DNA of 64,000 nt from Cenococcum geophilum 1.58 (taxonomy: Eukaryota; Ascomycota; Dothideomycetes; Gloniales; Gloniaceae). The notes under the pieces are model-generated. The model had not been told where the DNA came from. It worked only from the letters and a program-made list of their open reading frames with translations, and did no database searches. The DNA is taken from the NCBI GenBank assembly GCA_001692895.1, contig KV748245.1, positions 124,001 through 188,000 of the forward strand, given 5' to 3'. The translations under genes were made by a program, and so were the position numbers. How positions within the stretch are numbered: position 1 is the first letter of the stretch; each line of letters begins with the position of its first letter. Below are positions 14,794 to 58,587 of this stretch, piece by piece.

Positions 14794-15005
14794 CGTCAGG
14801 AAAAAATTTACCAGCATCTAATTTTACTTTTCTGCCATTTTAGCATTTTCTAGCATTTAGCAGCTAAATGCGGCATTTATTACTAAGTATTAGCATTTAG
14901 CGCCAAATGCCGCATTTATAATTAAGTATTAGCATTTAGCTGCTAAATGCTAGAAAATACTAAAATAGCAGAAAAGTAAAATTAGACGCTAGTAATTTTT
15001 TTCTA
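14794..15005. repeat. Long imperfect hairpin at the left of M1
   Basis: The left half (CTAATTTTACTTTTCTGCC onward) is repeated in inverse orientation ending at GTAAAATTAG near 14985, with AAATGC-rich sequence in the middle. The outer ends also mirror each other. Alone it would resemble a 212-bp palindromic MITE. Confidence 0.8.
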
Positions 15006-15007
15006 AA

Positions 15008-15332
15008 GTTCTATATAAAGTTTAAAGTTCTGCACGAAGTTCCGCACGAAGCTCTGCGCGAAGCTCTACATAAAGCTCTGCACGAAGTTCTACATAAAGC
15101 TCTACACAAAGTTCTGCACGAAGCTCTGCACAAANCTCTACGCGAAGCTCTACACGAAGCTCTGCACGAAGTTCTACACGAAGCTCTACACGANGNTCTG
15201 CACGAAGCTCTGCACGAAGCTCTGCGCGAAGCTCTACACAAAGCTCTGCACGAAGTTCTACACAAAGCTCTACACGAAGTTCTGCACGAAGCTCTGCACG
15301 AAGCTCTACACGAAGCTCTGCACGAAGCTCAA
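15008..15332. repeat. Minisatellite A (12-bp unit) in M1
   Basis: About 27 units of GCTCTRCACGAA. The main variants, CTGCAC and CTACAC, differ by a transition at a TpG, the type RIP makes. Because 12 is divisible by 3, several frames stay open, which explains the Cys-Arg-Ala-Ser and Glu-Leu-Arg open frames here. Confidence 0.92.
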
Positions 15333-15439
15333 ACATTAGGGCATGTACCTCCGTATATGCACCTAGGTAGCCACCCCATTTTTTACCCTTCCTTACATCC
15401 TCCCTACCTAGGAAGACACCAGAACGACAGCCAGCAGAC

Positions 15440-15835
15440 GACCGTCGCCGGAGCTAGACGACCGTCAGAGCCAGACGACCGTCGTCAGAGCTAGACGACC
15501 GTCGTCAGAGCTAGACGACCGTCGTCAGAGCTAGACGACCGTCGCCGGAGCCAGATGACCGTCGCCAGAGCTGGACGATCGTCGTCAGAGCCAGACGACC
15601 GTCGTCAGAGTTAGACGACCGTCGTCAGAGCTGGACGACCGTCGCCGGAGCCAGATGACCGTCGCTAGAGCTAGACGACCGCCGCCGGAGCCAGATGACC
15701 GTCGCCAGAGCTGGACGACCGTCAGAGCCAGACGACCGTCGTCAGAGCTAGACGACCGTCGCCGGAGCCAGATGACCGTCGCCAGAGCTAGACGACCGTC
15801 GTCATCGCCACACGACCGTCGCCAGAGCCACACGA
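15440..15835. repeat. Minisatellite B (20-bp unit) in M1
   Basis: About 20 tandem units of GACGACCGTCGTCAGAGCTA with C/T variants. The GACGAC-CGTCGTC core is nearly self-complementary. Confidence 0.92.
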
Positions 15836-15904
15836 CAACCGTTCGAACGACCAGCCAGCGAACACGATAAACGATTCGATCGATCGATCGAATCAAGGTG
15901 ACAT

Positions 15905-16034
15905 AGACAGGTAGGCACAGATAGGTAGGCATAAACGGGTAGGTATAGACAGACAGACAGATAGGTAGGTAGGCAGGCAGGCAGGCAGGCAGGCAGGTAG
16001 GCAGGTAGGCAGGCAGGCAGGCAGGCAGGCAGGT

Positions 16035-16069
<35 letters not shown>

Positions 16070-16095
16070 TAGGTAGGTCGGTAGGTAGGCAGGTA
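15905..16095. repeat. Minisatellite C (GGCA/GGTA tetranucleotide) in M1
   Basis: Irregular units such as AGACAGGTAGGCA pass into a long GGCA tract with GGTA interruptions. Confidence 0.92.
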
Positions 16096-16167
16096 GAAGA
16101 GAACCGTCGCTATATATTAAATTATCTAAAATAATATAATTTATTTTGCACCAACTGCGTAGAAAGC

Positions 16168-16440
16168 AAGATATATAGAATGTGCGAGAAGGGCATTATA
16201 TACGGAATGTGCGAGGAGGGCATTATGTATAGAATGCGCGAGGAGGGCATTATGCAAAATGCGTAATTAGCTGCACTAGATTGTTAAATACAGCAGTATG
16301 CCGCACTGCATTATTAAATATAGCAGTATACCGCACTGCATTGTTAAATATAGCAGTATGCCGCACTATATTGTTAAATACAGCAGTACGCAGCAGTATG
16401 CCGCACTGCATTGTTAAATGCAGCAATATGCCGCACCTTA
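16168..16440. repeat. Two further tandem arrays at the right of M1
   Basis: First about three copies of a 27-bp unit containing GCGAGGAGGGCATTAT, then about five copies of a 28-30 bp unit containing GCAGTATGCCGCACTGCATT. Neither appears in M2 or M3. Confidence 0.85.
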
Positions 16441-16679
16441 GTCGATACCATACGCTACACGTTATAGTGCGCGGAATGCGCATTTGGCCGCCAAATGCTG
16501 CCAAATGCTGCAAAAATGCTGGTAAATTTTTTCCTGACGTAGTAACTAGTTGCGAGTTAGTATTTGCTATACTAGTATTATTACCTAATCCTAAGGTAGT
16601 CGCCGCTGTAAACGCCGTCGTGGCTGCCACTTTTAGTGGCATATTATTTAACTTCTTTTATTATAACCTTAGTAGTAAA

Positions 16680-17102
16680 TGTATAATAAAGCCTTATAGG
16701 AAATACTACGGTAGACTTATTAATAGGCTGGGTATATAGGTATAGAATAGTTAATAATATAAATATAACTAGTGGAGTAGTTACCTAATAGATTAGCTTT
16801 AATTATATTCTAAGATTTACTATAAGGAGAGAAGAACTATCTAAGTAGGGACTGTGGTCCTTTAAATATACAACCGTACTCCTAAGAAATCCTCCTTATA
16901 TATAAAGTACGTCTTATATATAAGGTACGTAAGTTCCTCCTATCCCTTTTGTTTAATACATAGTACGTTATATAACCTTAGTTACTATTTCTTATTATAT
17001 AGTTTTATCGGCTCTATTCTAGACTATGCCTTAATTAACTAACTAGCTGCTTCCGACTCCTTTCCTAGTAGTTATAATATTGTACTTAAAGCGTCCATAA
17101 CA
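16680..17102 (-). repeat. LTR of Gypsy B
   Basis: 423-bp LTR, same family and boundaries as the LTRs at 14192-14614 and 47646-48068. Confidence 0.88.
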
Positions 17103-18188
17103 CTTTATATAGAGCCTCTATACGTAGAGCTTTATATAGAGCTCTGTGCGCGGCTTATTCCGCAGAGCTCTTATAAGCTTTATATCTATATAATATTACT
17201 TATCCTTAGGATATTTAAATAAAAGCGGTACCATTTTAAAGCGCTTTATAAGCTCTATAAATCTATATTAATAGAAATTTTATTTATTTAATATTAGGGG
17301 TTGTATTATAAGTGTAAGTATATTAAGGGAACATTGCCAAGACTATCCGGAGACTATCCGGATAGTCTCCAGATACTATTAGCTGATAGGTCTATTATCC
17401 AAGAGGCCTATCCGGCCTATCCGGCCTATCCTCCGCAAGTTTGTTTATCGATAAGCTCTAGACACCAGCGGGTTAAGGGATACAGATTCGTTCTTGACTC
17501 CACCATGGAGTCTCCACACACACCATACACCTGCGTTCCTGAGCGACATTTTTAAACGTATCGGAGCGTCATGTTTGAAGTCACGTGTATACTTACTAGT
17601 CAGGTAATTGGCCTTTGATATTCAGGCCTATCTTGAAACTTTAGCACTTTATTATCAGAGGAGTGAGTTGAAGGCTGCAATTCCTCCAGCCGAGGATGAC
17701 AGATTAAGACATCTAGCATCTCAAGCACCACTTTAAAAAGCACTAAGCTAGCAAGCTTAGCAGCTAGTCACTATCGACGAGAATGAAACCTGTGGCGTCG
17801 AGTCAGTGGCTGCGAGACGAAGCTGTGGAAGCACATAGCTGCCTGAGACCCGTTCCTCTGAGGGAAGCATGAGGTGAAATTAAAGCAATCATGATGAAAT
17901 TCTAATTCAAGCAAAGGAAGTGGATGGAAGGAGCATAGGCATAATAAGAAAATACTATTGGTAGCACTTAGAAGGATGCGGAATTCCAAGCTTGATGGCT
18001 GCATTAACTAGCTTAGCGTCTGCCCTCCTTGAATCTCCCGACGATAGATCGACCCGCGATGACAGATCTTATTAAAGAAAAGAGTCTGAAGGATTGCACA
18101 CCTCCCCTTTCTGAAACGAGTGGGATAAACAGATTGCCGCGATGTTCTAAACACCGGAACATCCCGAAAGGACAGATAATTGAGTGTA
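17103..18188. other. Intergenic, transition from RIP-rich to normal composition
   Basis: Up to about 17300 the sequence is AT-rich with short TATAGAGC-type inverted repeats. From 17300 it turns to ordinary composition. I see no convincing gene. It holds a perfect 22-nt palindrome at 17349-17370 and a triple CCTATCCGG repeat near 17410-17435. The stretch ends at the target duplication of the hAT element. Confidence 0.6.
17349..17370. repeat. Perfect 22-nt palindrome
   Basis: GGAGACTATCC followed directly by its reverse complement. The left neighbour adds another GACTATCCGG, so the half-site occurs three times within 40 bp. Confidence 0.9.
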
Positions 18189-21100
18189 CAGGGTTGTATA
18201 GAAACGTACCGGTTTTAATACGTTTTATGCGGTACTAAAACGTTTCAACTGTGCGTGTTTTATATAAAACAAACCTGGTACGTTTTAACTGTTTTAGTAT
18301 TTTATAGGTTTAGCTAACGAAATGAGGTTTCCCTCATAGTTTCCCTCCTTGTCGGAATAAGGGAATTATATGTTTACTACCCATGCTTACGCTGCCAAAT
18401 TCTGCCATATTCTGCCGACCCTAAATTTAGCCAATCAGGATTTTCCATCCCCGGGATGGAAAATCGCTATTGGCTCGCTTACTACTAGCGCCTTAGCGGC
18501 CCTCGCGATATGTCTATATGCTACCCCTGACGACAGATAGAAAAGATAGATTAATTAATATAATAACCTTCCCCTTACACCTAGGTGTATACCCCTATGA
18601 TACCTATACTCCTGGTTTCCCTCCTCCAAACCTTCTATCTTAATACCCTTTTACCTCTACCATGGCTTCTTAAGACAATGTCTCTACTGTTTTGGATTTT
18701 ACGGAGTATACATAAGACGAAGACGATAACTCCTGCCTAGCATCCTAAGCTAGCACCACTAATAGCGACGAAATCTTATGCCAAGAGAGGGTAAAGGCAA
18801 ATAAGGAGCTATGGTCTTATACTCGTAAAGCAAATAGTTCTAAGAAGGTAAGGGATAGGTTTCGCCATTAGATATACTATTGTAAGCATTATAGTAGCTA
18901 TAAGGGCACTCTAAATGCTGAAAGATTCCGTATATACCTTAAAAGCCACGGTATAAGTGTTAGCTCTACGCCCCTAGGTCTAACAAAGAGAGCTTTTAAT
19001 AACACGATAGTAGACGTCTTTGGTAGGAAAATGACTTTACAAGAGTAGCGAGACCTAGATAAAGAAAAGACCCTTTAAGTAGCTATTAAAGTACCTGAAT
19101 TCAAGGAAGCCTATGCACGACTTATTACTATCCAAAACCTACCTTTCTCACTACTCAATTGGCCTGAATTTTGGGCTGTTATTCTGTTAGTCAACTATAT
19201 GGCTAAAGAGACTCTTAAACTCGCGCGAAAAGACGTTCTAAACCTTATCGAATTAACCTATATCCTCTACCGCGAAGAGCTTATTAAAAAGCTTAAGAAC
19301 TCCCTTTCCTTAGTCCACTTTTTAATTAATATATGGACATTGCCAGCAAACATAGGGTTCTAGGCAATTATAGTACATTGGGTAGATGCAGAGACTCGCT
19401 ATACGGAGACTGCCTTATTATCACTTAAAGAATTCAAGGGAGCTTATAGTGGTGAGGAGCAGGCAGAGGTCTTTCTTTAAGTTATAAGAGAGGCTAGTCT
19501 AGAAGATAAACTCGGCTTCTTTACGTCAGATAATTATGGTTTAAACGACATTATGCTACGCTATATTACAGAGGAGATTAAGAACTTTAACCTAGTCCTT
19601 CGTTAAGTACGTTGCTTTGGCTATAATCTTAATCGTATTGCCCAAGCATTCCTTTTTGGATCTATAGTAAAGCAAGGAGAGGGACAACAGGACGAGGATA
19701 AGGCAATTGAGATAGCTATTTGGGATATTACTAAACTCTAAGACGAGCTTTAAGGTCAAGGATTATAAAGTAAAGAAGATATTACTAAAGAGTTTCGCAA
19801 GCATGGCAGTCTCGGTAAACTCTATAACTATAACGTCTTCTCTCACTCTTCTCCCAGTCGATTTTAAGCCTTCCTTACAGTAGTTGGCTGAGCAATTCCT
19901 ATGGATAATGACACGCGGTAGAACTCCTGGCTAGATAAGGTTACTGTCGCTTTACAGAAGCGTAAGGAATTTATGTCCTGGACGGAAGATTACTAGCAGG
20001 AGCTTAGTGATAATATTCTTATAAGAGACGACTGGTAAGAGCTTAAAGACATTAGAGAAATCCTCTAACCTCTTAAGACCTGTACAAAGAACACAGAAGG
20101 GCATACTGCTACGCTTTATACGACCTTTAATAACATGGAATTCCTTATTTACCACTTTACCTAAATATAGGAGAGGTTTAAGGGTAACGCTTAAATAACT
20201 ATAAGGTTAATGGCAGCTTGGTATAAGTTTGATAAGTACTATAAGTTCACTAATGATACACCCGTTCACGCGGTAGTAGCTCTTCTTTACCCCTAACTAC
20301 GCGAAGCATACCTTAGGAAGGTATGGTCAGGCAAGGAGCAGCAGAAGTGGATTAAGCCTACTATTACTAAGGTTCAAAACCTATGGAGGGACTATTTTAA
20401 GCCGGAGAGCGTATAACCAGTAGATCTCGACTTAATTAAAGATCTAATTACACGCTTTGTTACTAAAATGACTATTTTAACAGCAACCGTCAATGAATTC
20501 GATGACTTTATTAAGGTATAACTCTAATAATCGCTTATTACTCTAGCTAATATCTACAGGGCGTACAAACCTCTATCGGCGATTAATTACCTCTTAACTA
20601 GTGGCTGGAACCTGCACGGCAATTTACCTATCCTAACCTTTCCCGAATGGCTATTACCGTCTTCAGTATCCCCCCAATGTCGGCTGGCCCAGAATAAGTC
20701 TTCTTGGGAGCTAAACATATAATTGCGCCAAAGAGAGTAAGGCTTAGAGTAAAGATGTTGGAGATAGCAGAGTTACTAAAGAGCTGGGTCCGTATTTTAA
20801 AAATAATAGGTAGGGTACCGTTAAGTGGCGTATTTACGAAAAGCCGCTTTATAAATAAGGCATTAAAGGTATTAGAAGAGGAAGGCGACGGCAATAAGGT
20901 AGTTAAACTACCTCTTAAATAAGATAGTTGACTATAGGCTCAACACTATAAATTACTCCTCCTGTTTATATAGTACGACGCCCAAGCTCTGCGCAAGTGC
21001 CTCTGTAAGGCGTTATGCTTAGCCTCTATTGCTATAGAAACCCCAGATTAAGTAAACAATGGCTTCGCCTAAGCTTATTAGTATACCTGCGAAACCTGAA

Positions 21101-21193
21101 ACATATTGAAACGTTTCGCATAAAACTGATACGAAACGCCATGAAACTGAAACCGCGTGTCAGTTTCAGTTTCAATGTTTCTATACAACACTG
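18189..21193 (+). mobile_element. hAT DNA transposon with intact ends (hAT1)
   Basis: 3005-bp element with terminal inverted repeats CAGGGTTGTATAGAAAC (left) and CAGTGTTGTATAGAAAC (right, reverse complement). An exact 8-bp target duplication TGAGTGTA sits at 18181-18188 and 21194-21201. Eight-bp duplications and CAG-starting ends are hAT hallmarks. Subterminal sequence is rich in GAAACG and ACGTTTTA words. The transposase inside is decayed, so the copy is not autonomous. Confidence 0.95.
18662..20920 (+). pseudogene. hAT-family transposase, decayed
   Basis: From ATG at 18662 the plus strand reads as a hAT transposase. Landmarks: HWVDAETRYTETALLSLKEF near 19380-19440, a GEEQAEVF and TSDNYGLND stretch (catalytic-domain region) near 19460-19555, DNDTR and NSWLDKV near 19910-19945, and the C-terminal dimerisation block SIPPMSAGPE...GAKHIIAPKRVRLRVKM near 20670-20760. 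Several in-frame stops interrupt it, mostly TAA or TAG where Gln or Trp is expected, fitting RIP; the fourth codon is already TAA. The bulk of the 750-residue frame is still alignable in one frame, so decay is point-mutational rather than by deletion. Confidence 0.88.
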
Positions 21194-21201
21194 TGAGTGT
21201 A

Positions 21202-21683
21202 TTGAGACAAAAGATTGTTCTTTCCTATAGTAGAGGCACAGACTCGTCGTTAGCGCCACATCATAAACAATCGAGTCACCTTAGCAAACACAAGACAAAT
21301 TTCTCTAAGCGGTCATATATTTGAATCCGAAATCTAGATGTTTTTGTGGCAAGATATGCAAAGGAGCGCGATGAAGGAATCAAATATTACATATATTACT
21401 CATTAAGCCTTTAGGTTATTGCGTGGCTGCAACAAATATATGCAACGAATCCGCCAAAAATATTACAAAAAATTCTATAGTAAACGCAAAGCCCAGAGTT
21501 CCAAAATATGTCAATGCCCAAATGCGCCGTTGGCTATGCAAGGTTAATGAGTGGACGCCCACCAATAACGTTAAAGGAGTGTCGTAAGTGGTTCATTTTA
21601 TATTCCCTGCATCAAAATCGCCATGCTTTTCATCTACGCATACCCCGGCCCTTCAACGTAAACATTTCAAAACTATCAGATCA
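21202..21683. other. Intergenic, no gene seen
   Basis: Ordinary composition between the hAT target site and the 3' end of the wall-protein gene. Only short chance open frames. Confidence 0.55.
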
Positions 21684-22772
21684 TCACCAGTGATAACCTC
21701 CCGTCGGCTTTGGGCCAACGTGAGAAGAGGCGGACACCCACGTCGAGCTGGAGCTGGAGTACGCATAAGGAACGGAGCTAGCTCCAGTGCCAGTAGGTTT
21801 GCTGCTGTATCCGGTGCCGACAGACTTGCTACTGTATCCGTTTACGCTCAGCTGCGTTGATATTTGAACTGCTGCAGATGAGGGGGTCTTGGTGGTTTCC
21901 GGATACTTCGTGAACGTGACACAAGTTGTCGTGCCGCTCTCAGTGTAAGTGTGTGTCTCGTAGCAGGTGTGGCATTCCTTGGGTGGAGTTTGAGGAGCAA
22001 CAGTAACGTAAACGGTGCTGTAGACAGTTGTCGGAGCCGGGCAGGTCCCTGAAGCAAGAGCGGTAGAAGTAACAGCAGCGACGCCGACAGGAGTAGTAGC
22101 AGCGAGGGTGGGCTGAGTAGTCTTAGTTTGCCATACAGTCACTTCAGTAGAGTAGATCTTCGTTGTGTAGCTTGCACTCAGCCATGTCGAATAGTAAGTG
22201 GTGGCCCCCTGGCTACCCACTGCTAATGAAGTTGGCACGAAAATCGGGGTTGAAGTGGTAATTTTTGTTGGATAGACGATCGAGCTAAGACCAGTTGAAT
22301 GGGGTGTCGACGGCGTGGTCGACTGGTGGTGGCACCCTCCCTTGCATGATGTGATGGTAATAGTTGATGTAGTAAGAGTTGTGATGACCTGAGTGCCGGA
22401 AGTCTGCGTTACAGGGCAAACTGTAACGGTGGTATACGTGGTTAGAGTCTCCGTGCTCGGGCTGCCTGTGCCAGTGCCCGTGCCAACGACAGGTGAAGAC
22501 CAGGGAATGTATGGCAGGAGCGAAGATGAGGGTGAGGAAGAATGATGACGGCCACTAGAGTAGGCTGCTGTTGAAGAAGCGGTGGCCCCTGTTGAGATGG
22601 GACCTACAGAAGTGGTCGAAGAAGAAGCTAACGATGCTACTGAGGGTGTCGACCTCCATGAGGAGCTTGCACCAGACGGAACCCAGCTACCATAATGTCG
22701 GGGCCAGTTCAGGACAGGCTCAGCAGAAGCCGCGCCGACCAAAGCAGCGAGGAGCAAGGATGCTGAATACAT
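21684..22772 (-). CDS. Secreted Ser/Thr-rich cell-wall-type protein
   Basis: Single-exon frame of 362 aa. Residues 1-17 (MYSASLLLAALVGAASA) form a typical signal peptide, with the mature protein starting EPVLNW. The rest is dominated by Ser, Thr, Gly and Pro, with repeats such as YSSK(S/P)(V/T)GTG near the C-terminus and scattered TVYSTVYVTV and TTYTTVTVC motifs common in fungal wall adhesin-like proteins. A Cys-containing patch (CKGGCHH, about 144-150; CHTCYETHTYTESGTTTC, about 277-294) may form disulfides. There is no clear GPI-attachment hydrophobic tail. A surface or wall-associated, O-glycosylated role is inferred from composition; no specific family is recognised. Confidence 0.78.
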   Translation of the reverse strand: MYSASLLLAALVGAASAEPVLNWPRHYGSWVPSGASSSWRSTPSVASLASSSTTSVGPISTGATASSTAAYSSGRHHSSSPSSSLLPYIPWSSPVVGTGTGTGSPSTETLTTYTTVTVCPVTQTSGTQVITTLTTSTITITSCKGGCHHQSTTPSTPHSTGLSSIVYPTKITTSTPIFVPTSLAVGSQGATTYYSTWLSASYTTKIYSTEVTVWQTKTTQPTLAATTPVGVAAVTSTALASGTCPAPTTVYSTVYVTVAPQTPPKECHTCYETHTYTESGTTTCVTFTKYPETTKTPSSAAVQISTQLSVNGYSSKSVGTGYSSKPTGTGASSVPYAYSSSSSTWVSASSHVGPKPTGGYHW

Positions 22773-27403: not shown

Positions 27404-27673
27404 CTTGGTCTGGATGCGCTACCACATGCGAGGTAATGGAGACGACGTAAGGACTAACCAAATGTATTCGGAAAGTGTGGGAAGAAATGGCTGCTGGTGT
27501 GGCTGATTGTGTGGCACTTCTGGTAAAGAGCTGAACAGCTTCTGATTGTCGAAGAAATGTGGTTTTAATTGGGTATATGAGCCGACTCAATGAGCGAAAT
27601 CTACGATCTACGCGTAGTCCGGTACTTTTTGGCTCGTTTGACTGCAAGAGGTTGAACTTGCGAAGGAACCTAT

Positions 27674-30700: not shown

Positions 30701-31665
30701 AAAACACCGAGTTCTACCAAAGCTCTGCAAAAGCTCTACCAAAAGCTCTACCAAAGGCTTTGCAGCACCTCTTCCCACCCAGTATACTGGCCATGCGGCG
30801 AACGGGGCATGCGGTGCGCGGGGGGGTCTCCCCCTTGAAGCTCTACTCGAAGCTCTGCTCGGGGCTTTACTCGAAACCCTATACGGAGCTCCAAAGCTCT
30901 ACTAACACGCAGTACTAATATACTAGGAAGGTTCTTCAATTAGCTGTATAACCGCCCATACGATCAATCGCCGTACAATCGTCTCTACGAACGGCTCTAC
31001 GAACGGCTCTACAAACGTCTACACGATCGCCCGTACGATCGCCCGTACAAACGTCCATACAAACACCCATACGATCAATCAATCAATCGATCAATCAAAT
31101 GCCTATCCAATTAATCAGATGCCCGTACGAACGGCTCTACGAACGTCCATACAATTAACCAATCGATCAATCGCCCATACGAACGCCCGTACGAACACCC
31201 ATACGATCAATCAATTAAACGCCCATACAATTGCCCATACGATCATCTGTACCCTATACACCTACATATGGCTCTATAGAAGCTCTACACGAGGCTTGGT
31301 AAAAGCTCTACCAAACGCCCCACTAAACGCCCTACTAAAGCCTCTGCAAGAGCTCTGCCCACGCAGTGAATTGGCCACGTAGTGTATTAGCCACGCAGTG
31401 AATAGAGCACGCAGTGCGTAGGGGGTCTCAGGGGGTCTCCCCTTGAAGCTCTGCTCGAAGCTCTGCTCGAAGCTCTACTCGAAGCCCTGCACGGAGCTCC
31501 AAAGCTTTACTAATACGCAGCACTAATATACTAGGAGGATTCTATAATTGGCCGTATAGCCACCTATACGATCAATTGCGGTATAAAAGGCTCTACAAAC
31601 GTCTACACGATCGCCCGTACGAACGCCCATACTATCAATCGATCAATGGGTCAATTGCCTGTCCC
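30700..31665. repeat. Duplicated repeat patch related to minisatellite A
   Basis: Two tandem copies, roughly 30715-31260 and 31265-31660, share the order: AAGCTCTACC units, a GGGGGTCTC block, GAAGCTCT(A/G)CTC units, GGAGCTCCAAAGCT, a TACTAATATACTAGGA tract, then CCGTACGA/CCATACGA and ATCAATCA-rich arrays. The GCTCTACTCGAA unit is a one-to-two base variant of the 12-bp unit in M1-M3. I find no CATCAGG-type ends or TA duplication here. Confidence 0.8.
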
Positions 31666-31669
31666 TTAA

Positions 31670-32266
31670 CACGTTAGGGTCCTCAGGGTAAGTGGTCCGT
31701 GCGGAGCACCGTTTTCAAAACAACGCGTATATCTATATAGAATTCAATCATCAATTATACCGCCACCATGCCTTCTAATCGTGCTAGAATTGATGTAGAC
31801 CTTGTTCAGAAGACTCGATATAACGTTCCCCTAAATAAGACGGCGAAAATAGCTCCCCCCAAACCCTGGCCGTTGCCCAAATTCGAACCTCTCCATATTA
31901 ACAATTAGGACGACCATGGCTCACCAAACCTCCCTTCTAACGTTAATATACACAATCTTTTCGAGTTATTTAGACTATCCTTTACGGATGAGATTATGGA
32001 TAAGCTTGTAGAGTGGGTAAATAAGCCCGCGGAGCTCTATCCGCTAGACAAGGAAGCAGAATACCTATGCACATAGCAGCCAATATGTACTCTACGCGTA
32101 CTTCGGAATGCTTATCCATATAGGAATTACTATGGAGCCGGCTATTAAAGACTACTGGAAGGATTTAAACATACATGGCAGCCTCATATTCCTGAGTAGG
32201 GGCATCGAATTTAGCTGATCCGATTGGTCGATCTTTATCGATAACCTGAGGACCCGAATTAACGTG
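31670..32266 (+). mobile_element. Internally deleted piggyBac-family element
   Basis: 597 bp between exact TTAA target sites (31666-31669 and 32267-32270). The ends are inverted: CACGTTAGGGTCCTCAGG on the left, and the reverse complement of the right end is CACGTTAATTCGGGTCCTCAGG-like with a 4-bp difference. TTAA duplication is the piggyBac hallmark. An ATG at 31768 starts an N-terminal transposase-like reading (MPSNRARIDVDLVQKTRY). A second frame around 32100-32215 gives YFGMLIHIGITMEPAIKDYW, a conserved piggyBac (DDE_Tnp_1_7) block. The catalytic region is missing, so this is a non-autonomous derivative that kept both ends. Confidence 0.88.
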
Positions 32267-32270
32267 TTAA

Positions 32271-33343: not shown

Positions 33344-36300
33344 ATGGTCAAAATGCGGGTTCCCATCCGCGAACAGCTAGGATGTCTGGTCTTGCTTGCC
33401 TCTCTCATCGGTCTAGCGGTCATTGCTATTGCAACATGGGTAAATTTCATCCTTTTGCGGGCTTGACGGTCTTTGGCCTTGCCATGGGTAAATTTCATCC
33501 TTTTGCGGGCTTGACGGTCTTTGGCCTTGCCATGGGTAAATTTCATCCTTTTGCGGGCTTGACGGTCTTTGGCCTTGCCATGGGTAAATTTCATCCTTTT
33601 GCGGGCTTGACGGTCTTTGGCCTTGCGCTCAATGCTAACAATTCCGCGCAATTGCGTAGATTACGAACCACCATTTCGTGCTGAGCATAAGGTCAGTACG
33701 ATTTTCCGGCTGCCGTTCACCTTTCCTAACAATTCCGCAGGGCGACACGGCTGTCCCTTACTGCATCTTTGAAGGCCGCTCAGCTATCATCGAACTTGCT
33801 TCTCATGCAGTCAAGCGTGAAGTCTACCGCAACACGAGTCCTAATTCAAACGTCCCTCCAACGCTACAACAAGGGCAACAATACGGCCGAAAACTGGGTT
33901 CGCGCACAAACAGACCTTGGTGCTGTATTTCAGGGCGATCAGCAAGCAGCGCTCCTTCTCCAGGCCCAGGTTTTCCCAATCAACAATACTGGTTTGGCTG
34001 GGGATGGCTCGGTAATAAACTGCACAGGCAGCTCTGCTGCTTCCATCGACCTGCCTTATAACTATCCGAATGGAACCCCAGTAACTTTGGGAGATCCACA
34101 ATATGGGTTTCCGCCTGCATTGTATCCAAATTTCACCTTCGTCGATATTCAGATCAATTCCACTTTCAACAAGACAATTGCCGTTTTTGACGGTCGAACT
34201 ATTGATATGAACAACTATCTCCTATTAGGCCCGTGGCTAGTCAACGAGACATTTTCATTGGTATCGATCACAACACCGATCATTAATAATACGTCTTCTA
34301 TTGATATCCTAGGATGGCTGACTGTCGTTGTTGATGGAAGGCTGATCAAAAATGTCGTCGACGCAATAGAAGGCCTCGACCAGAGTGGAGTTACCATGCT
34401 GTTTGGTCCAAACAATGTGACCAACAAATTTCCAAATGGAGTCCTCTATAATTCGAATCACGGGGAAGCCCCGCAAGATGAATCAGTGCGGTTCCTATTC
34501 CCACCAACAGAACGCCCCGGCATTCCTGACAGACATTCCGCCCACGCGTATGGAGCTACAGATCCGCCGTTCGATTGGAACAAGTTCATCGCTATCAAGA
34601 CTGGATTTACCGAGGATAATGGGGCTGCCAATAACGCAGGAAGCTTAATTTCAACCGAAAACGAAGAGGGTGCCGCCGTAGCCGTTGGCTATGCCGTTGT
34701 GAACACGAATCTGGTCGATTGGATGGTTATCGTCGAACAAACGCATACCGAAGTTTGGGGGCCCATTGTTCACCTACGAAACCTTATAATAGCTTGTGTT
34801 TTCGGAACAATGGGGGGAATGCTTGTTCTCGCTTTCCCAGTTGCCCATTTTTCGAGTCGTCCCATCCGGCGTTTGCGTGATGCAACTCGGAAATCCGTCA
34901 CTCCCCTTGGCTACGGACCTGAAGATGAAAGCATAGGGTCACACCATGGTGACGGTGCCGAAAATGACGATGCAGCTACTCAGGTTGCTCGAAAGGAAGG
35001 ATTCATGGAACAGCTTAAAAGACTGAGCACCAGACAGAAACTCACGAAGGCAGAGCGGAAGGAAGAAGCACGAAGAAGGCAGTTTCGAATACCCGGTAAA
35101 GTCAAAGATCGCAAGCACCTCATACATGACGAACTCACCGACCTCACTCAAACATTCAACGAGATGTCTGACGAGCTCATGATGCAGTATGAAAAGCTGG
35201 AAGAGAGGGTCCAGCAGCGTACTGCAGAATTGGAGTTGAGTAAGAAAGCTGCTGAAGCCGCTAACGAGAGCAAAACCTTGTTTATTGCGAATATTTCACA
35301 TGAGCTCAAAACCCCGCTCAATGGCATTTTAGGCATGTGTGCTGTGTGTATGTCGGAAGATGACCCAGTCAAACTGAAGCGGTCACTCGGTATTATATAT
35401 AAGAGTGGTGATCTCTTGCTCAATCTCCTTACCGACCTCTTAACTTTCAGGTAAGAAGATTTACTAATGTTGGTTCCGTGTATCGAAGAAGGAAGATTGA
35501 GTGTAATTATTGTTTTTGTAGTAATTTGTGCTGAGAAATCCTTGTGTTTTGCTAACATATAATATAGTAAGAATCAAGTTGGCCAACAACTTGCTCTCGA
35601 CGAGAAAGAATTTCGGTTACGTGACGTCAGCTCACAGGTTCTTGCTATCTTTGAAAAGCAGGCCAAAGAGGGTGGGATAGGTCTTCGCGTCAAGTTTGAG
35701 GGCCCTGTTGATACGAATCTTGATGAGCAAGGCCGACCCATAGAACGTAATGACCTGGCTCCATTTGGCTTGGGACGCCTTAAGGATATGATATTATGGG
35801 GAGATCAGCATCGAATACTCCAGGTTGTCATTAATCTTGTGTCTAACAGTCTCAAATTCACTCCTCAAGGCGGATCTGTTGTCATCACTATACGTTGCGT
35901 TGGAGAGGCGTCGGTGTCGGACAGTAGCCGGAAGGGATCTATGCAATCAAGACAAAGCTCGATGCGGAATTCCCGGAACAAAGTTCGAGCTTCAATATCC
36001 GAAGCATCGGTAGCGATATCGACTCCAAAAAATATGGATACTGCAAACGCCATCAACGCCTTCGAGAAACCAACAGCATACTCTCACGTCATGGCTCATG
36101 AACGAGCTGTAACTCCTCCACCTGGAAGATGGCTTATGTTCGAATTCGAAGTCGAGGATAGTGGGCCTGGTATACCTGAACATCTCCAAAACAAGATCTT
36201 TGAGCCATTCGTGCAAGGCGATCTTGGTCTGAGTAAGAAGTTCGGGGGGACTGGCCTGGGGCTCAGCATCTGTTCTCAACTGGCTGGCCTTATGAAAGGC

Positions 36301-42176: not shown

Positions 42177-42593
42177 TCAGCACTGTGTTAGAGATGCGAG
42201 GGCTATGTGTTTACAGCTTTGTTCCTTAGGCACACAGAAAATCGCGGACAAGAAGCGAAGCGCTAGCTTGACGCATCGCTGCCCGTCATTAACACTTCCA
42301 CAATAAGCTCCAATCCTTTCAAATTGCCCAGGTACTGCTCGCGACTCCCGTATCAAAATCGCCTGGCAATTGACCATATTCGGAAGACTTACCACAGGTG
42401 CTGGACAATCCTTGTCCAAATCCCAATGTTCCCAGGTTCTCACGACTATGAAGTAGAACCTCTGATCAAGACCTAAACCCCGCAGCATCTGCATTACACT
42501 ATCCGGGACCAAAAAGACTTGCTCAACATCTCGGTTCCCTCTCTCAGTCGCTCGAGCACTGTCTAAAGACGGACCTGTAAGGTCGAATTTCAA

Positions 42594-42704
42594 GTGAACT
42601 ACAGTCTCTACGTCATCTAGAGACACATGAGTGAACTACAGTCTCTACGTCATCTAGAGACACATGAGTGAACTACAGTCTCTACGTCATCTAGAGACAC
42701 ATGT
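42594..42704. repeat. 37-bp tandem repeat x3 in the HET pseudogene
   Basis: Three near-perfect units beginning GTGAACTACAGTCTCTACG. Each contains an inverted repeat GTCTCTA/TAGAGAC. 37 is not a multiple of 3, so the array shifts the frame of the HET tail. Confidence 0.93.
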
Positions 42705-47085: not shown

Positions 47086-47645
47086 TATTGTTACTAATCA
47101 ATATTGGCGAATATATTGGCGTTACCTCAGCGAGCTCAGACGTGATTTTTTTAGCTAGCGTCGGAATAACCTACGCCGTCTTCTGAATTGCAAAATTACG
47201 TCTAAGAGCCTTTGGCGAGTTTTGTTAAAAACGTAAATAAAATCCATAAAACGGATATTACAGATATCTAATTTATTTATTCACATAACGCGTTATTATT
47301 AAACCCTATAGTTACATTTTTTTAAGACTTAGGGCTTCTAAATAGTATTAATTTTATTAAAGTTAAAAAACGCGTTATTAAAAGCGTAAGCATATATTAT
47401 ATTTTATTAAATAGTCTACTAATATAGATAAAACTATATAGATATCTATTACTTAAAGCTATTATAATACCTAGTAGATACTATAGTTAGGTCCTTTCTT
47501 AAAAATATCCTTACTTAGCCTAGAGTGCCTCTACTAACTACTAAACGCTATATCTGTATAGAAAACCACTATAGCTTAAAAGAAAAACACTAGTTATTAG
47601 GGTTAGAAGACTATAATTAAATAGGAACGCTAGTAGGTCTTATAG
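47086..47645. other. AT-rich flank of Gypsy C
   Basis: Up to about 47240 the composition is ordinary; after that it is RIP-like and AT-rich with no recognisable domain. It ends at the target duplication TATAG of Gypsy C and continues at 62763. Confidence 0.6.
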
Positions 47646-48068
47646 TGTTACGGACGCTTTAAGTACGATGTTATAACTACTTAGGGAAGAGTTAAAAGAA
47701 GCTAGTTAGTTAATTAGAGCACGGTTTAGGATGGAACTGGTAGAACTATATAACGAGGAATGGTAACCGAGGTTATATAATGTGCTACGTATTAAATAAG
47801 AGGAACGAGAGGAACTTATGTACCTTATATATAAGACGTATATTATATATAAGAAGGATTTTATAGGAGTACGGTTGTGTATTTAAAGGACTATAGTCCC
47901 TACCTAGATAGTTCCTTCCTTGTAGTGATTCTTAGAATATAATTAGAGTTAATCTATTAGGCAACCACTCCACCAGTTATTATTACGTTATTAACTTTAA
48001 TTTATATTACCTATATACCTAGCCTAATAATAAGCCCACCGTAGTTCCTACTATAAGGTTTTATTACA
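47646..48068 (+). repeat. Gypsy C 5' LTR
   Basis: 423 bp, TGTTACGGACGC to TTTTATTACA; matches the LTRs of A and B. Confidence 0.93.
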
Positions 48069-51019: not shown

Positions 51020-51213
51020 TGTAAGCTTTGCAGTGTGTAGGAATTAAACGAGCGACTTTATTGTAAATCTATGGAAATCAAGTGGTATAAATACATGAAA
51101 GTAGACCCCGAACTCCGAAGCCCATAAGTTATTTAAACCATATCCAAGACATGCAAGGGTAGTGCTGACGCAGGTGAAACAGGGTAATATGCAAGGTCCG
51201 GTAGTCGGTTACA
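51020..51213 (+). repeat. Solo LTR (194 bp) in Gypsy C
   Basis: TGTAAGCTTT...CGGTTACA flanked by exact 5-bp duplications GTTAG (51015-51019, 51214-51218). It contains a TATAAATA box. Inverse copy at 63188-63379. TG/CA ends plus 5-bp duplication fit a solo LTR left by recombination. It has far more intact CpA/TpG sites than the surrounding Gypsy, so it is younger or escaped RIP. No internal retroelement region for this family is in the window. Confidence 0.83.
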
Positions 51214-51838
51214 GTTAGGAAAAGGGGAGGCCTATAGGACTAAAGGGAACTAGTAGTAGAGCCTTAGACCTATAAAGGAATTTAAGGACAATACTTAAAT
51301 TTATAAGTTAAGTGGCAAGATTAATAGTTTAAGGTATTAATAGATAGTAGAGTAATAAGAAACTATATCTTACTAGCAGTAGTTAAAAGAATAGGGTTAC
51401 TATATAGGAAGAAAGAATATCCTTACCTATTAGTGACGATTTTAGGAGATCTAATAGCCTATAGAGGAGGCATTATTAATCTTAAAACAGGACCTATTTA
51501 GTTAACTATTAAGGGGAGACAAATCGAGATATCTTTTAATATATTACTATTGGGAAATAATAAGGCAGTACTAAAAATGCCTTAGTTATAGGAATATAAT
51601 CTAAAGATTAATTAGGTTACAGGTTAGGTTAATATTAGAGATACTTAACGCCGTAAAATGTAATAGCAAGCTAAGATGGTATAGTACTAAGTAGGAGTAA
51701 CCTATAAAGAAACAGGAAAAGGACTAAGTTATACATCAGGAAATTTTTTTTTAGGCACGTTGTTGCAAGCGAAAATCGGGTCTGCAAAACCTGCGTAAGT
51801 CGCGATTTGCGGCAATTCGCAGCAATTTGCTACAAACA

Positions 51839-51915
51839 CGCAGCTACTTATAAGTAGCCTATGCAAATTGCTACAAATACGCAGCTACTTATAAGTAGCC
51901 TATGCGAATTGCTGC
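51839..51915. repeat. Direct repeat with ACTTATAAGT palindrome at left of M2
   Basis: Two copies, about 41 bp apart, of CGCAGCTACTTATAAGTAGC, each holding the palindrome GCTACTTATAAGTAGC, next to GCAAATTGCTGCAAA-type words. Confidence 0.85.
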
Positions 51916-51953
51916 AAATTACCGCAAATTGCTAAAATCGTGACTTGAGCCAG

Positions 51954-52552
51954 CTCTGCACGAAGCTCCGCACGAAGCTCCGCACGAAGCTCTACACGAA
52001 GCTCTGCACGAAGCTCTACACGAAGCTCTGCACGAAGCTCCACATAAAGCTCTGCACGAAGCTCTACACGAAGCTCTACACGAAGCTCTATACGAAGCTC
52101 TACACGAAGCTCTACACGAGTTCTGCACGAAGTTCTGCACGAAGCTCTATACGAAGCTCTGCGTACAGAGGCTCTGCACGAAGCTCTGCACGAGGCTCTG
52201 CACGAAGCTCTACACGAAGCTCTACACGAAGCTCTGCACGAAGTTCTACACGAAGCTCTGCACAAAGCTCTGCGTACAGAGGCTCTGCACGAAGCTCTAC
52301 ACGAAGCTCTACACGAAGTCCTACACGAAGCTCTACACGAAGCTCTGCACGAAGCTCTACACAAAGCTCTACTAAGACTCTGCACGAAGCTCTGCACGAA
52401 GCTCTACACGAAGCTCTACACGAAGCTCTACACACAAAACTCTGCGCAAAGCTCTTATACAAAGCTCTATACAAAGCTCTACGTACAGAGGCTCTGCACG
52501 AGGCTCTACGCGAAGCTCTGCGTACGGAGGCTCTACACGAAGCTCCGCATGA
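51954..52552. repeat. Minisatellite A (12-bp unit) in M2
   Basis: About 50 units of GCTCTRCACGAA, interspersed four times with a GCGTACAGAGG or GCGTACGGAGG spacer that is also present in M3. Confidence 0.93.
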
Positions 52553-52677
52553 CACACATTACTTCGGGTCCCCGCTATATTCCCGATAGCCTCTACACAT
52601 AGGTAGCCACCTTATTTTTTACCCTTCCTTCCTTACATCCTCCCCTACCTAGAGAGGCACCAGAACTGCAGCTAGCA

Positions 52678-53222
52678 GACGACCGTCGCCAGAACCAGAT
52701 AACCGTCACTAGAACCAGACAACCGTCCCCCAGAGCCAGACGACCGTTGCCAGAGCTAGACGACCGTCGCAAGAGTCAGACGACCGTCGCCAGAGCTAGA
52801 CGACCGTCACCAGAGCTAGACGATCGTCGCAAGAGCCAGACGACCGTCGCCAGAGCTAGACGATCGTCGCCAGAGCCAGACGACTGTCATCAGAGCCAGA
52901 CGACCGTCGCCAGAGCCAGACGACCGTCGTCAGAGCTAGACGACCGTCGCCAGAGCTAGACGACCGTCGTCAGAGCTAGACAACCGTCGTCATCCAGACG
53001 ACCGTCACCAGAGCTAGACGATCGTCGCAAGAGCCAGACGACCGTCGCCAGAGCTAGACAATCGTCGCCAGAGCCAGACGACTGTCGTCAGAGCTAGACG
53101 ACCGTCGCCAGAGCTAGACGACCGTCGCCAGAGCTAGACGACCGTCGCCAGAGCCAGACGACCGTCGTCAGAGCTAGACGATCGTCGCCAGAGCCAGACG
53201 ACCGTCGCCAGAGCTAGACGAC
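52678..53222. repeat. Minisatellite B (20-bp unit) in M2
   Basis: About 27 units of GACGACCGTCGCCAGAGCTA with a period of exactly 20; most variation is C/T. Confidence 0.93.
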
Positions 53223-53369
53223 CGCCAACCGTTCGAACGACCCAGCTAGCAAACACTGAACGATTTGATTGGTCAAATCAAACCAGAGCATTATTATTAG
53301 TCTATTACCGAATCGAATCGAATTAAGCCCTCCTATGGAGGCACCCCAGACAACTACTGTTTAGAGGTA

Positions 53370-53595
53370 GTATAGATAGATAGGTATAGACGGTAGGCAT
53401 AGACAGGTAGGCATAGACAGTAGGCATAGACAGGTAGGTATAGACAGTAGGTATAGACAGGTAGGTATAGACAGTAGGCATAGATAGGTAGGTATAGGTA
53501 GGTGGGTATAGACAGACAGACAGATAGATAGATAGGCAGGTAGGCAGGCAGGTAGGCAGGCAGGCAGGCAGGCAGGTAGGCAGGTAGGTAGGCAC
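53370..53595. repeat. Minisatellite C in M2
   Basis: ATAGACAGTAGGC and ATAGACAGGTAGG units pass into GGCA/GGTA tetranucleotides, as in M1 and M3. Confidence 0.92.
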
Positions 53596-53689
53596 TAGGC
53601 CAATTAACGATTTAGAGGCTCTAAGTATTTTATATAGTTATAATATAAATATATTTAAAAGTATATTATAGCAATCTATAGAAAACGTG

Positions 53690-54020
53690 CAAAATATATA
53701 AAACGTATAAAACGTGCAAAACGTACGAAACGTGCAAAACGTACGAAACGTATGAAACGTATAAAACGTACGAAACGTGCAAAACGTACAAAACGTACGA
53801 AATATGCGAAATGTGCGAAATGCAAGGGCTACGTACAGGCTTCGCGCGGATTGCCGCAAAAAATATAGGCTTCGCGCAGGTTGCTGCAAACTGCCGTAAA
53901 AAATATAGGCTTCGCGCGGGTTGCTGCAAACCGCCGCAAACCGCACAGGACCATATACGACCACCGCAACCGTACAGTTTGCAGCAAATTGCCGCAAATT
54001 GCTGCAAACCGCAACAACGA
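53690..54020. repeat. AAACGTACG array and GCAAA-rich end of M2
   Basis: About 8 units around AAACGTGCAAAACGTACG (53690-53820), then about three copies of a GGCTTCGCGCGGGTTGCTGC-type unit and GCAAATTGCCGCAAA words towards the right terminus. Confidence 0.85.
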
Positions 54021-55769
54021 GCCAAAAAAAAAATTTCCTGATGTATACCGAAGAGATACCATAAGTATGGTAAGAAACTATGGTCGCTAAAAAGCGAGAA
54101 GCTGTTAGAGTATATAGTATAGAACTATAAGATAGAATTAGAACTAGGAATAAGTTTAAGGTTCTTTCTAATCTACAAGCTTACTAAAGAAGAAGGTAGA
54201 GCATTAAAAGAGTTTATCTAGGAAAATCTATAAAAGGGATATATTAGACTATCGCAGTTATTAGTAGATTATTTAGTACTATTTATACCTAAGAAAAACG
54301 GCAAGCTAAGATTATGTATTAACTATAGATAGTTAAATAGCATTACTAGAAAGGATAGGTATCCTTTACCCTTAATTAGCGAAATTTAAGATAGGATAGG
54401 TAACGCGTAAATCTTTACGAAGATAGATCTAAGATAGGCATACTATTAGATTAGGATTAAGGAAGGCGATAAATAGAAGGCAGCCTTTAGGTCAAAAGAA
54501 GGACTATATAAACTATTAGTTATATAATTCGGGCTTATAAACGCACTAGCAACATTCTAGAAGCGTATTAACAATATATTAGGAGAATACTTAGATGAAT
54601 TTGTTATGGTATACCTTAATAATATTATTATCTACTTAATAAATAAGGAAGAATATGGAGAACACGTTAAATGGGTTTTAAAGAGACTATAAAAAGAATA
54701 GATACTAGTAGCAATTAAGAAATGCGAGTTCTTTACTAGGAAAACCGATTTTATTAGATTTATTATTAGATTAGGCCAACTTAGTATAGATCTAAAGAAG
54801 ATTAAGGCTATAGTAAATTGGCAAGAATTAGAGAACGTCACGCAGTTAAGATTATTCCTAGGGTTTTGTAATTACTATAGAAGGTTTATAGCGCAATAGT
54901 TAAAAGATATTAAGCTATTTACGTGATTAACAAAGAAAAAAGAACTATAAGTATAGGGAGAGGAATAGCAGAAGCTATTTAAATAAGTTAAAGAGTTATT
55001 TACCTAAGAGCTAGTTCTTAAGATCTATTAACTAGGATTAGAAACGGTTGTAGAAATAGACGCATCTAACTATATACTAGGGGCGTGCTTTATATAGAGG
55101 TATTAAAATAGATAGCACCTAGTAGCATACTATAGTTAAAAGATAACACTACTAGAATTAAACTATGATATCTATAATAAGGAGTTATTAGGTATAGTTG
55201 TAGCACTAAAGAAATAGAGAGCATTTTTGTAAGGTATAGAGAAACTATTTATAGTTAAGACGGATTATAAGAACTTAATAGGATTCTTAATAATAAAGGA
55301 ATTTAACTAAAGATAGGTTAAATAGGTAGAGATACTTACAGAATACTATTTTAAGATTTAGTATATTAAGGGTATAGATAACATAAGGGCAGACGCTCTA
55401 AGTTAAAAGGCTGAACTACAGAACGATAAGAAGCCATTAGGGGCTTTACTGTAAAAAGACACAGATGGATTGATTAGGTTTAATTATCCAAAAATTATAA
55501 CAATTTAAGAAGAACTAAATAGAGCTTACGAGTTACTAGAAAGCTTTTAGGTGTAAAGAATTCTAAAAGCATAGCTAGAAGATCTATAGACGGATATATA
55601 CGAAAATTAAAAAGTAAAGTATATCCTAAGAAGCATAGCAGAGCAATTTATAGAAGATTTCTATAAGGGAATAACTTAAGGACATAATGGAGCTATAGGC
55701 TTAGTATTAAGACTCTAAGAAGAATATATTATTAACGGAATCTAAGGCTTACATTAGCATTTTGTTGGG

Positions 55770-56060
55770 GTGCCAAGATCCTAGAGGCCTCCTAACAGGA
55801 TTTTGATTTTCCTGGAGGTCCTGATCGTCCTAACAGGCTCCTAACAGGGTCCTGGCAGGATTTTAATTTTCCTAATCGTCCTAAACGTCCTAAACGTCCT
55901 AAACGTCCTAAACGTCCTAATGTCCTGAACATCCTGAACGTCCTAATCGTCCTAGTCGTCCTAATAGGAAACTAATATTTTCTGATCGTCCTGATAGGCT
56001 CCTGACAGGAAACTAGTATTTCCTGATCGTCCTGTCAGGTTCCTGGCAGGATACCCCCCC
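55770..56060. repeat. Left subterminal repeats of M3
   Basis: Short units such as GTCCTAAAC, GTCCTGATC and CTCCTAACAGGATTTTGAT. Similar GGTCCTAAT/GGTCCTGAT units recur at 57460-57670 at the other end. Confidence 0.88.
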
Positions 56061-56097
56061 AAAGCAACACCCTATGCACACCCCTTAAGCAACACTA

Positions 56098-56392
56098 CTG
56101 GGGCTCTACACGGGGCTCTGTACGAGGCTCTACATACACAAAGCTCTGCACGAAGCTCTACATAAAGCTCTGCACGAAGCTCTACACAAAACTCTATACG
56201 GGGTTCTGCGCGAAGCTCTATGCGGAGCTTGCGCGGAGCTCTGTACAAAGCTCTACACGGGGCTCTGCACGAAGCTCTACACGGGGCTCTGCACAAAGCT
56301 CTACACGGGGCTCTGCACGAGGCTCTGCACAAGACTCTACACGAGGCTCTACGCGAAGCTCTGCGTACGGAGGCTCTACACGAAGCCCCACA
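56098..56392. repeat. Minisatellite A in M3
   Basis: About 24 units mixing GCTCTACACGGG and GCTCTGCACGAA, ending with the GCGTACGGAGG spacer shared with M2. Confidence 0.9.
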
Positions 56393-56919
56393 TGACACAT
56401 ATTACTATCGGGTCCCCGCTATATTCCTAATAGCCCTACACGTGCCTCTGCCAAACTACCCCTTTATAGCCACCTTATTTTTACCCTTCCTTACATCCTC
56501 CCTACCTTAGGAGGCACTAGAACGGCAGCCAGCAGAGGACCGTCACTAGAACTAGACGACCGTCGCCAGAACTAGACGACCGTCACCAAAACCAGATAAC
56601 CGTCACCAAAACCAGACAACCGTTGCAAGAACTAGATAACCGTCCTAGAGCCAGATAACCATTTCCAGAACTAGACAACCGTTACCAGAACTAGACGACG
56701 ACCTTTCAAACAACCAGCCAGCGAATACCACGAGCGATTCAATTAATCGATCAATCAAATTAAACCAGAGCTTTGATATTGGCCTATCACCAAATCGAAT
56801 CAAGGCCTCCTAGGGAGGCACCCTAGACAACCACCGTTCGAATATACAGCTAGCGAATAGCCATAGAGAACGATCTAAATCAATTAGAGCCTTCGATCGG
56901 GCCGACTTCTCCCCCAAAT

Positions 56920-57192
56920 TACAGATAGGCATAGACAAGTAGGCACGACAGGCAGGCATAGACAGGTAGGCACAGACAGGTAGGCACAGACAGGTAGGCA
57001 CGAACAGGTAGGACGGTTGGACAGGTAAAACAGGCACGACAGGTAGGACAGGCAGGACAGGCAGGACAGGCAGGACAGGCAGGATAGGCAGGACAGGCAG
57101 GACAGGTAGGACAGGCAGGACAGGCAGACAGGCAGACAGGCAGACAGGCAGATAGGTAGACAGGTAGATAGGCAGACAGGCAGACAGGCAGG
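56920..57192. repeat. Minisatellite C in M3
   Basis: GGCACAGACAGGTA units turning into GGACAGGCA decanucleotide-like and GGCAGACA repeats. The long Leu-Pro-Val open frame on the minus strand is a by-product. Confidence 0.9.
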
Positions 57193-57459
57193 CACTAGGC
57201 CTAGTTAGGAAATCAGTACACGGCCGGCGGATTATTAGGAACACCGCTAATCGACGGTTTAGAGCCTCTGCGAGAGCCTTACCCCTCGTCTCCTCGATTA
57301 ATCGCGACGCAGGTAGTAGGCAGGAAGGATTTAGATTATTTAGATTCCTTAAAGTATCCTATATATAGAATAGGGTCTAAAATTAAACTNGTTTTTATAT
57401 TTATTNGCTAGCTATAAATATAAGAGCATTAATATACCTTATTTTTAAATTTAATTTTT

Positions 57460-57670
57460 AAATTATTGTCCTAATTGTCCTAATTGTCCTGACGGTCCTA
57501 ATGGTCCTAATAGTCCTGATGGTCCTGATGGTCCTGGAGGTCCTGGAGGTCCTAGAGGTCCGTGTGGTCCGGGCGACCTCCTGATAGGTTCCTGATAGGA
57601 AGCCGAGTGTAAGTGTCTCCTAGAGCTCCTAACAGCCCTGACAGGAGCTGTTAGGAACCTGTTAGTACTA
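57460..57670. repeat. Right subterminal repeats of M3
   Basis: GGTCCTAAT, GGTCCTGAT and GGTCCTGGA 9-bp units followed by an inverted CCTGACAGGAGCTGTTAGG segment. Confidence 0.88.
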
Positions 57671-58587
57671 TTAGGAGGCATAAACATTTTCCTAATATAG
57701 CGTAAAAAGTTATAAAGGAATATTTAGATTGCTAAAGAAATAAACTAATAAGGCATAAGCTATATAGAGGGCTATAACCTATTAAAATACTAGAGAGACT
57801 ATAGGAGGTTATATTATAGGACTTTATTATAAAGCTATTAAAATTAAGAAATCCTATTACCGGACAAGATTATAATGTAATCTTAGTGATAATAGATAAG
57901 CTTATAAAGTGGGGATACTTTATAGCATATATAGAGGAGATATTAGTAGAAGATATCGCTAGAATCTATATTAAGGAAGTATTCGCAAAATATAGAGTAT
58001 TAAGTAAGATTATATTAGATAGAGATCTAAGATTTATAGTAATATTCTAGGAGGTATTCTTAGCAGAATAAGGAGTTAGAGTAGCAACTTTTACCGTATA
58101 TTATTTGTAAACAGACGGTTAAACGGAAAGACTAAATTAGATACTAGAGCAGTATCTAAGATACTATATTAATTACGCGCAGAATAATTAGGTATTACTA
58201 TTACTAGTTATATAGTTTATATATAATATAACATTATAAAAAGGAATAGGCATATTACTATTTAAGGTAAATTATGGATATAAGCTAAGGATATTATTAT
58301 TACTAAGACAAATAAAGAAAATGAGTAATATAGCTAAAGAGAGAATAAAGACGTTAATAAATCTTTATGCAGACCTTATGGAATTAGCAAAAACGGTATA
58401 AGAAAGAATAAAAAAGTACTATAATGCTAGGAGATCTAAGGGACCAGATCTTAAGGAGGGAGATAAAGTATAGCTACTACACAAAAATTTTAAGAGTTGA
58501 CGACTAAGTAAGAAGTTGGACTATATTAGACTAGGACCTTTTAAAATTATTTAAAGGATTTTACCAGTTATATTTAAGTTAAACCTA

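Follow-up and report, generated by a model that had tools for sequence, protein, structure and literature searches.

A minisatellite core shared between four sets of inverted ends in Cenococcum geophilum

A stretch of 64,000 nucleotides from the genome of Cenococcum geophilum 1.58 (contig KV748245.1, positions 124,001 to 188,000; here called the window, or C70:124001-188000 in a genome of 177,193,698 bases on 162 contigs) contains three insertions, M1 (14794-16539), M2 (51734-54043) and M3 (55752-57697), and raises the question of how one minisatellite core comes to lie between different inverted ends and what moves these elements. A preliminary description of the window had given these positions, and re-reading the letters bore them out, together with the module order in all three (12-bp array, linker, 20-bp array, second linker, GGYA array) and the difference in their subterminal repeats. 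The common formula it had given for the ends, C(A/G)TCAGGAAA, does not fit the left end of M3, which reads CATTAGCATTTTG, and other copies with ends of this kind read CATCAGCATTTTG. The elements are most probably cut-and-paste DNA transposons that are non-autonomous, behave like members of Plavaka, a CACTA-related clade, and carry a transferable minisatellite core.

One core in four sets of ends

A genome search by linker, as proposed in the preliminary description, gave many copies: an 18-mer of the first linker occurs 407 times exactly (213 + 194), against 2 for its reversed control, and the linker of M2 has one inserted base relative to this 18-mer. The first 20 listed linker copies, taken with 8 kb around each and all from contig C1, were examined together with M1-M3 (n = 23). 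At least one 20-bp unit was present in all 23 copies with up to 6 mismatches allowed, more than one AGGYA unit was found in 21 (the GGYA array is missing in L015 and L023), and the 12-bp array was found in 19, the four copies without it (L009, L015, L023 and L025) all belonging to the end set called D below. When module order was counted, with the element limits of six one-ended copies drawn by hand, only a single 12-bp unit, in L009, was on the wrong side of the linker. The composites are 1.5-3.7 kb long, with inverted ends and target duplications. In L025, repeats of GCGACACACAGTGCTATCGGGC type lie ahead of the linker, and L009 has one unit of this type beside unrelated sequence.

The sequences outside the core are termed shells. 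A shell end was found on at least one side in 23 of 23 copies, and both ends in 17. The earlier statement that one core sits in different shells is true of every copy examined; the three shells seen in the window also stand, but not their number, as a fourth, shell C, exists with its ends outside the window. Shell A comprises M1, L010, L011 and L022, shell B comprises M2, L012, L016, L019, L020, L027 and L028, shell C comprises L014, L017, L018, L021 and L026, and shell D comprises M3, L009, L013, L015, L023, L024 and L025. All four are repeated in the genome, the left end of A in 245 copies (control 0), a 16-mer of B in 281 (control 1), and the left and right ends of C in 492 and 478 (controls 1 and 0). 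For shell D, 13 of 40 scored right ends (query included; 141 first-look candidates) are identical over 120 bp, which suggests recent movement.

Target sites and the search for a transposase

A perfect 2-bp duplication flanks 16 of the 17 two-ended copies and is represented in all four shells, the chance of a matching dinucleotide being 0.087 per copy; the third flanking base matches in none of the 17. The duplicated dinucleotide is TA in 11 copies, AA in L021 and L024, TT in L028, AC in L017 and CT in L025. TA is thus favoured (11 of 17 copies, against 17% TA in the flanks), and shell A has it in four of four copies. The preliminary description had given TA as the boundary of the elements, which is correct for M1-M3 but does not hold as a rule, five of the 16 matching duplications being non-TA.

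Insertion-free repeats among the sequences examined were found for M1, M2, M3, L011, L016, L022, L024, L026 and L028. The duplicated dinucleotide is present once in at least one empty paralog of L011, L016, L022, L024 (AA), L026, L028 (TT) and M3 (window 2278-1458, minus strand). A second empty paralog of L022 has CA at the site, and that of M2 (window 3900-3185, minus strand) aligns without gaps and reads TG there. Because of the non-TA duplications and the empty paralogs with TT and AA, a strict TA element is excluded for shells B, C and D. In the flanks, CA and TG make up 2.2% each and TA 17%, a composition that looks like the outcome of repeat-induced point mutation (RIP). Two TA flanks can mislead in such AT-rich, RIP-like DNA, where the class was revealed only by non-TA copies and empty sites.

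An autonomous partner of the Tc1/mariner type had been suggested in the preliminary description. TA-specific Tc1/mariner (pogo/Fot) miniature inverted-repeat transposable elements (MITEs) with internal minisatellites would account for the TA share of the matching duplications (11 of 16, against that 17% in the flanks) and for the TA duplications of every shell A copy, and DDE_1 domains are indeed plentiful in the genome (150 scored of 713 candidates). However, the best 30 of the 150 scored loci, scanned for inverted TA-flanked ends, gave no pair matching the shells; the inverted ends found there were of other kinds, several loci had no convincing ends, and the one B-type end, at L043, lies outside that locus's own inverted repeats. 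A Tc1/mariner identity is not supported, as the duplication is not restricted to TA: the AA, AA, TT, AC and CT duplications, two of them confirmed by empty paralogs, refute this origin for shells B, C and D, and shell C goes with Plavaka domains instead. For the elements as a whole a Tc1/mariner origin is highly improbable. Two of the DDE_1 loci have stop-free domains and are perhaps young elements, L047 (domain C137:25891-26403) with inverted ends identical over 40 bp and L044 (domain C24:2165372-2165881) with ends identical over 25 bp.

Plant CACTA/En-Spm elements have subterminal repeat regions and form large autonomous units with small derivatives; their termini are CACTA and their duplications 3 bp long. 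The elements described here are similar in their subterminal repeats and in the occurrence of large units beside small derivatives, and differ in termini and duplication length. The termini speak against CACTA/En-Spm proper, not being of CACTA type. The Transposase_21 profile (PF02992) gave no match in the genome, nor did it give any in the control genomes.

The Plavaka domain (PF18759) has 123 matches in the genome, which were sorted by hand into 67 contiguous domains (class 1) and the parts of split domains, 43 of them first halves (class 2) and 13 second halves. Among the 26 class-1 matches covered by the listed C left ends, 11 have an inward-facing C left end 2,103-2,224 bp 3' of the domain, where about 0.15 such pairings would be expected by chance (arithmetic from the C left end counts). 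None of the 13 covered class-2 matches has a C left end on this side, and on the 5' side the nearest 4 kb are free of such ends for covered matches of both classes. A facing C right end was found at 16.7-17.3 kb for seven of the 20 class-1 matches covered by the listed C right ends, and at 24.3, 29.3, 33.0 and 41.4 kb for four more, and nine have none within 45 kb. Six intervals between C left and C right ends enclose a Plavaka domain, with lengths of 19,956, 19,966, 19,966, 19,986, 27,430 and 36,122 bp, the last two of which may hold insertions. The four units of about 20 kb are located at C1:6268551-6288516, C4:3751388-3771353, C7:3861499-3881484 and C8:1407723-1427678; with a near-constant length and about 17 kb between the domain and one end, they may include other genes.

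One of the 19,966-bp units was read at its end (L060). This end has TA followed by CATCAGGAAAATATTCGCAGG, its start reading CATCA, and can be aligned at 73-79% to the left shells of five composites of type C, the alignment ending about where the 12-bp array starts. Coordinates and this end together strongly indicate that a Plavaka family of about 20 kb in this genome has shell C as its ends, and because L060 matches the left shells up to about the 12-bp array, the shell C composites appear to be Plavaka elements in which the core has taken the place of the interior. A listed exact linker is contained in 10 of the 40 C intervals that are under 6 kb long (one interval lies beyond the reach of the listed linkers); in the remainder the linker may be mutated or absent. 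One core (C8:1843809) is located 1.1 kb from a Plavaka domain, a single coincidence estimated to be unsurprising.

None of the four 20-kb units contains a listed exact core linker. This, and the presence of the same core in unrelated shells, would also be found if the core were a satellite in its own right, or another mobile element, that happens to be nested within Plavaka-type elements. Such nesting is quite unlikely, since none of the 20 fetched cores lacks a shell end, core orientation and order are constant relative to the ends where these were found, and no ends of the core's own were seen. Cores lying mostly outside bounded units or in random order, which the preliminary description had named as the outcome that would speak against it, were not encountered among the 23 copies examined.

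Among described elements, the closest in termini are the PlavakaB families, which the available part of PMC12730594 describes as reconstructed from Agaricomycotina, with termini 5'-CATCA..TGATG-3' and 2- or 3-bp duplications, and grouped with CACTA relatives. As far as that text allows the comparison, shells B and D have the same CATCA..TGATG termini (M2, L019, L024, L025), with deviations in some copies such as L027 (CGTCA) and M3 (CATTA), the 2-bp duplications (16 of 17) are found in all four shells, and Plavaka domains lie between shell C ends in this genome. In contrast, the elements here are mostly non-autonomous with a minisatellite core, and the coding units measure about 20 kb. Shells A, B and D resemble C in their 2-bp duplications and in how they start, and all have the core.

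Several observations have to be set against the Plavaka reading. No C left end was found at 15 of the 26 covered class-1 domains, and no C right end at about 17 kb at 13 of the 20. The 20-kb units were defined by coordinates, and the letters were read at one end only, that of L060, whose CATCA start differs from the CATCG..CGATG of the shell C composites. The best-scoring Plavaka copy, L059 (C30:1709500-1716500), the sole copy read across its domain, has subterminal repeats of AGTGGAAA type on both sides; it was rejected as a shell partner, having no matching ends and no shell match, and a second Plavaka lineage may exist. For the other shells no autonomous partner was found: a scan of 6 kb inward from 100 listed A ends (of 245), 100 listed B ends (of 281) and 40 scored D ends (of the 141 first-look candidates) met no Plavaka domain. 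The termini of M1 are CGTCA..TGACG, and because of this difference from PlavakaB shell A is not placed there and is regarded only as working alike. The flanks of L019 are unequal (AG/TA), the empty-site alignments of M1 are gapped and not clean, and the 20 fetched copies come from a single contig and were selected by exact linker. Taken shell by shell, Plavaka identity is well supported for C, likely for B and D, and no more than possible for A. A pair of B ends around the core of L012 (C1:871343 and 877322, 5.98 kb) was tried as an autonomous unit and rejected, the frames being repeat-derived (stop-to-stop frames of at least 90 amino acids, judged by eye in a sequence lacking the last 1.1 kb before the outer end).

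Probable exchange of the core between shells

Core exchange had been put forward as an inference in the preliminary description and is now supported by the linkers. Four types of second linker were distinguished. Type alpha is found in all four A copies and in the B copies L020 and L027, and in a diverged form in the C copies L014, L017, L018 and L021; beta is found in the B copies L012, L016 and L028, gamma in the B copies M2 and L019, and delta in the D copies and the C copy L026. Shell B thus holds three types, and alpha and delta each cross shells. The sequence after the GGYA array is common to A (four of four) and C (five of five), and another one is recognisable in three of seven B and four of seven D copies, and traces of it remain in other B copies.

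In trees of the second linker, a single clade is rejected for B and for C, with p 2e-6 each in 22 rows, and with p 0.001 for B and 0.0002 for C in 19 rows from which the beta copies were left out, since these might start in a paralogous unit (neither tree includes L023). Because these trees reject a single origin of B and of C, core and shells appear to have recombined. The alternative is vertical inheritance, with one ancestral core element giving rise to four lineages with fast turnover of the outer parts and no exchange. On the two linker trees the shell labels are strongly clustered, with 7 and 4 changes where shuffling gives means of 12.4 and 12.3. The first linker unites the D copies in a clade, and neither linker rejects A as one (p 0.14 on the second). 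On the first linker only B is rejected, marginally (p 0.048), and the trees, with 80-137 columns, have few well-supported branches and, in the 19-row tree, the long row L015. All of this favours vertical descent or weakens the case for exchange. Nevertheless, strictly vertical descent is unlikely, given the distribution of second-linker types, the rejected clades of B and C, and the position of A, which groups with the B copies L020 and L027 on the first-linker tree yet shares its post-GGYA sequence with C. Because the labels remain clustered, the history is best read as mostly vertical descent plus several exchanges.

Short foldbacks with shell ends give an idea of how new ends might be acquired. 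Facing A ends 177-335 bp apart occur seven times among 100 listed A ends, one such foldback (C6:1186641-1186975) lying 0.57 kb before a core linker (C6:1187549), and at seven of 40 scored B loci an inverted second copy lies within 256-268 bp. The left shell of M1 is itself a foldback with 72-nt arms that are 93% complementary. The left shells of A and B may hence descend from short foldback MITEs, reverse descent being also possible. The composites have the inverted ends and duplications of MITEs but are 1.5-3.7 kb long, whereas short foldbacks with A and B ends do occur.

In the proposed mechanism, transposases would bind end sets of approximately C(A/G)TC(A/G)G(G/C)A and insert with a 2-bp duplication, preferring TA, and shells A, B and D would be mobilised by Plavaka transposases of other lineages. 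The core, that is two minisatellite arrays, two linkers and the GGYA array, might have taken over the interior of such elements and could move between shells by recombination or by template switching in gap repair, the arrays providing homology. New ends could be acquired when a short MITE inserts beside a core, a step proposed because the left shell of A, and partly that of B, resembles a whole foldback MITE. No function of the core was seen, and it is read as passive filler between working ends. A possible but doubtful extension regards the core as a selfish module that outlives its carriers, repeatedly taking new Plavaka-lineage ends by repeat-mediated recombination and staying mobile while RIP inactivates each carrier family.

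Window elements, similar systems and significance

All three window elements are on the plus strand. M1, a shell A composite of 1746 bp (14794..16539), was delimited by its ends and duplication (TA at 14792-14793 and 16540-16541). It consists of a left shell (14794..15012; foldback arms 14800-14871 and 14932-15003, inner terminal repeat eroded), the 12-bp array (15025..15330), the first linker containing CCTTACATCCTCCCTACC (15331..15435), the 20-bp array (15436..15836), the alpha-type second linker (15838..15910), the GGYA array (15905..16095) and a right shell (16096..16539) whose first part is common to shell C. M2, a shell B composite of 2310 bp (51734..54043; TA at 51732-51733 and 54044-54045), contains the 12-bp array (51952..52545), the 20-bp array (52676..53224), a gamma-type second linker that groups with those of D (53228..53360), GGYA-type arrays (53365..53594) and the right shell (53595..54043). 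M3, a shell D composite of 1946 bp (55752..57697; TA at 55750-55751 and 57698-57699), contains the 12-bp array (56103..56386), the 20-bp array (56539..56696), a delta-type second linker (56701..56857), GGYA-type arrays (56921..57192) and the right shell (57195..57697).

Another minisatellite-rich stretch of the window (30713-31680) has related but distinct units (GAAGCTCTGCTC, CTCTACGAACGG and CGCCCATACGAA) and apparently consists of two similar halves; it gave no match to the A-D shell, linker or array queries. Perfect tandem repeats (100% matches) are located at 33435-33626 (48 bp x 4) and 42593-42703 (37 bp x 3).

No description of this element family was found among the open-licence papers listed on fungal MITEs, Plavaka, CACTA and Cenococcum repeats. 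Comparable designs are described in the available parts of two reports. Cg_HINE, non-autonomous Helentrons of the Pacific oyster, combine flanking sequences with central satellite-like repeats (PMC7492417) and are similar in that families are combinations of flanks and central repeats, but they are Helentrons, whereas inverted ends, 2-bp duplications and one multi-part core in four end sets are found here. The BrickBuilt MITE of Porphyromonas gingivalis, with 19 copies in one strain (PMC4596501), likewise has a minisatellite between small inverted-repeat ends, but is bacterial and has a single array.

The elements thus form an abundant non-autonomous family, part of it recently mobile, whose unusual trait is the sharing and exchange of the core. 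The finding connects hundreds of non-coding repeats of a large fungal genome with Plavaka transposases, leaves four end sets open to testing, and provides a natural case of an internal block switching transposon ends.

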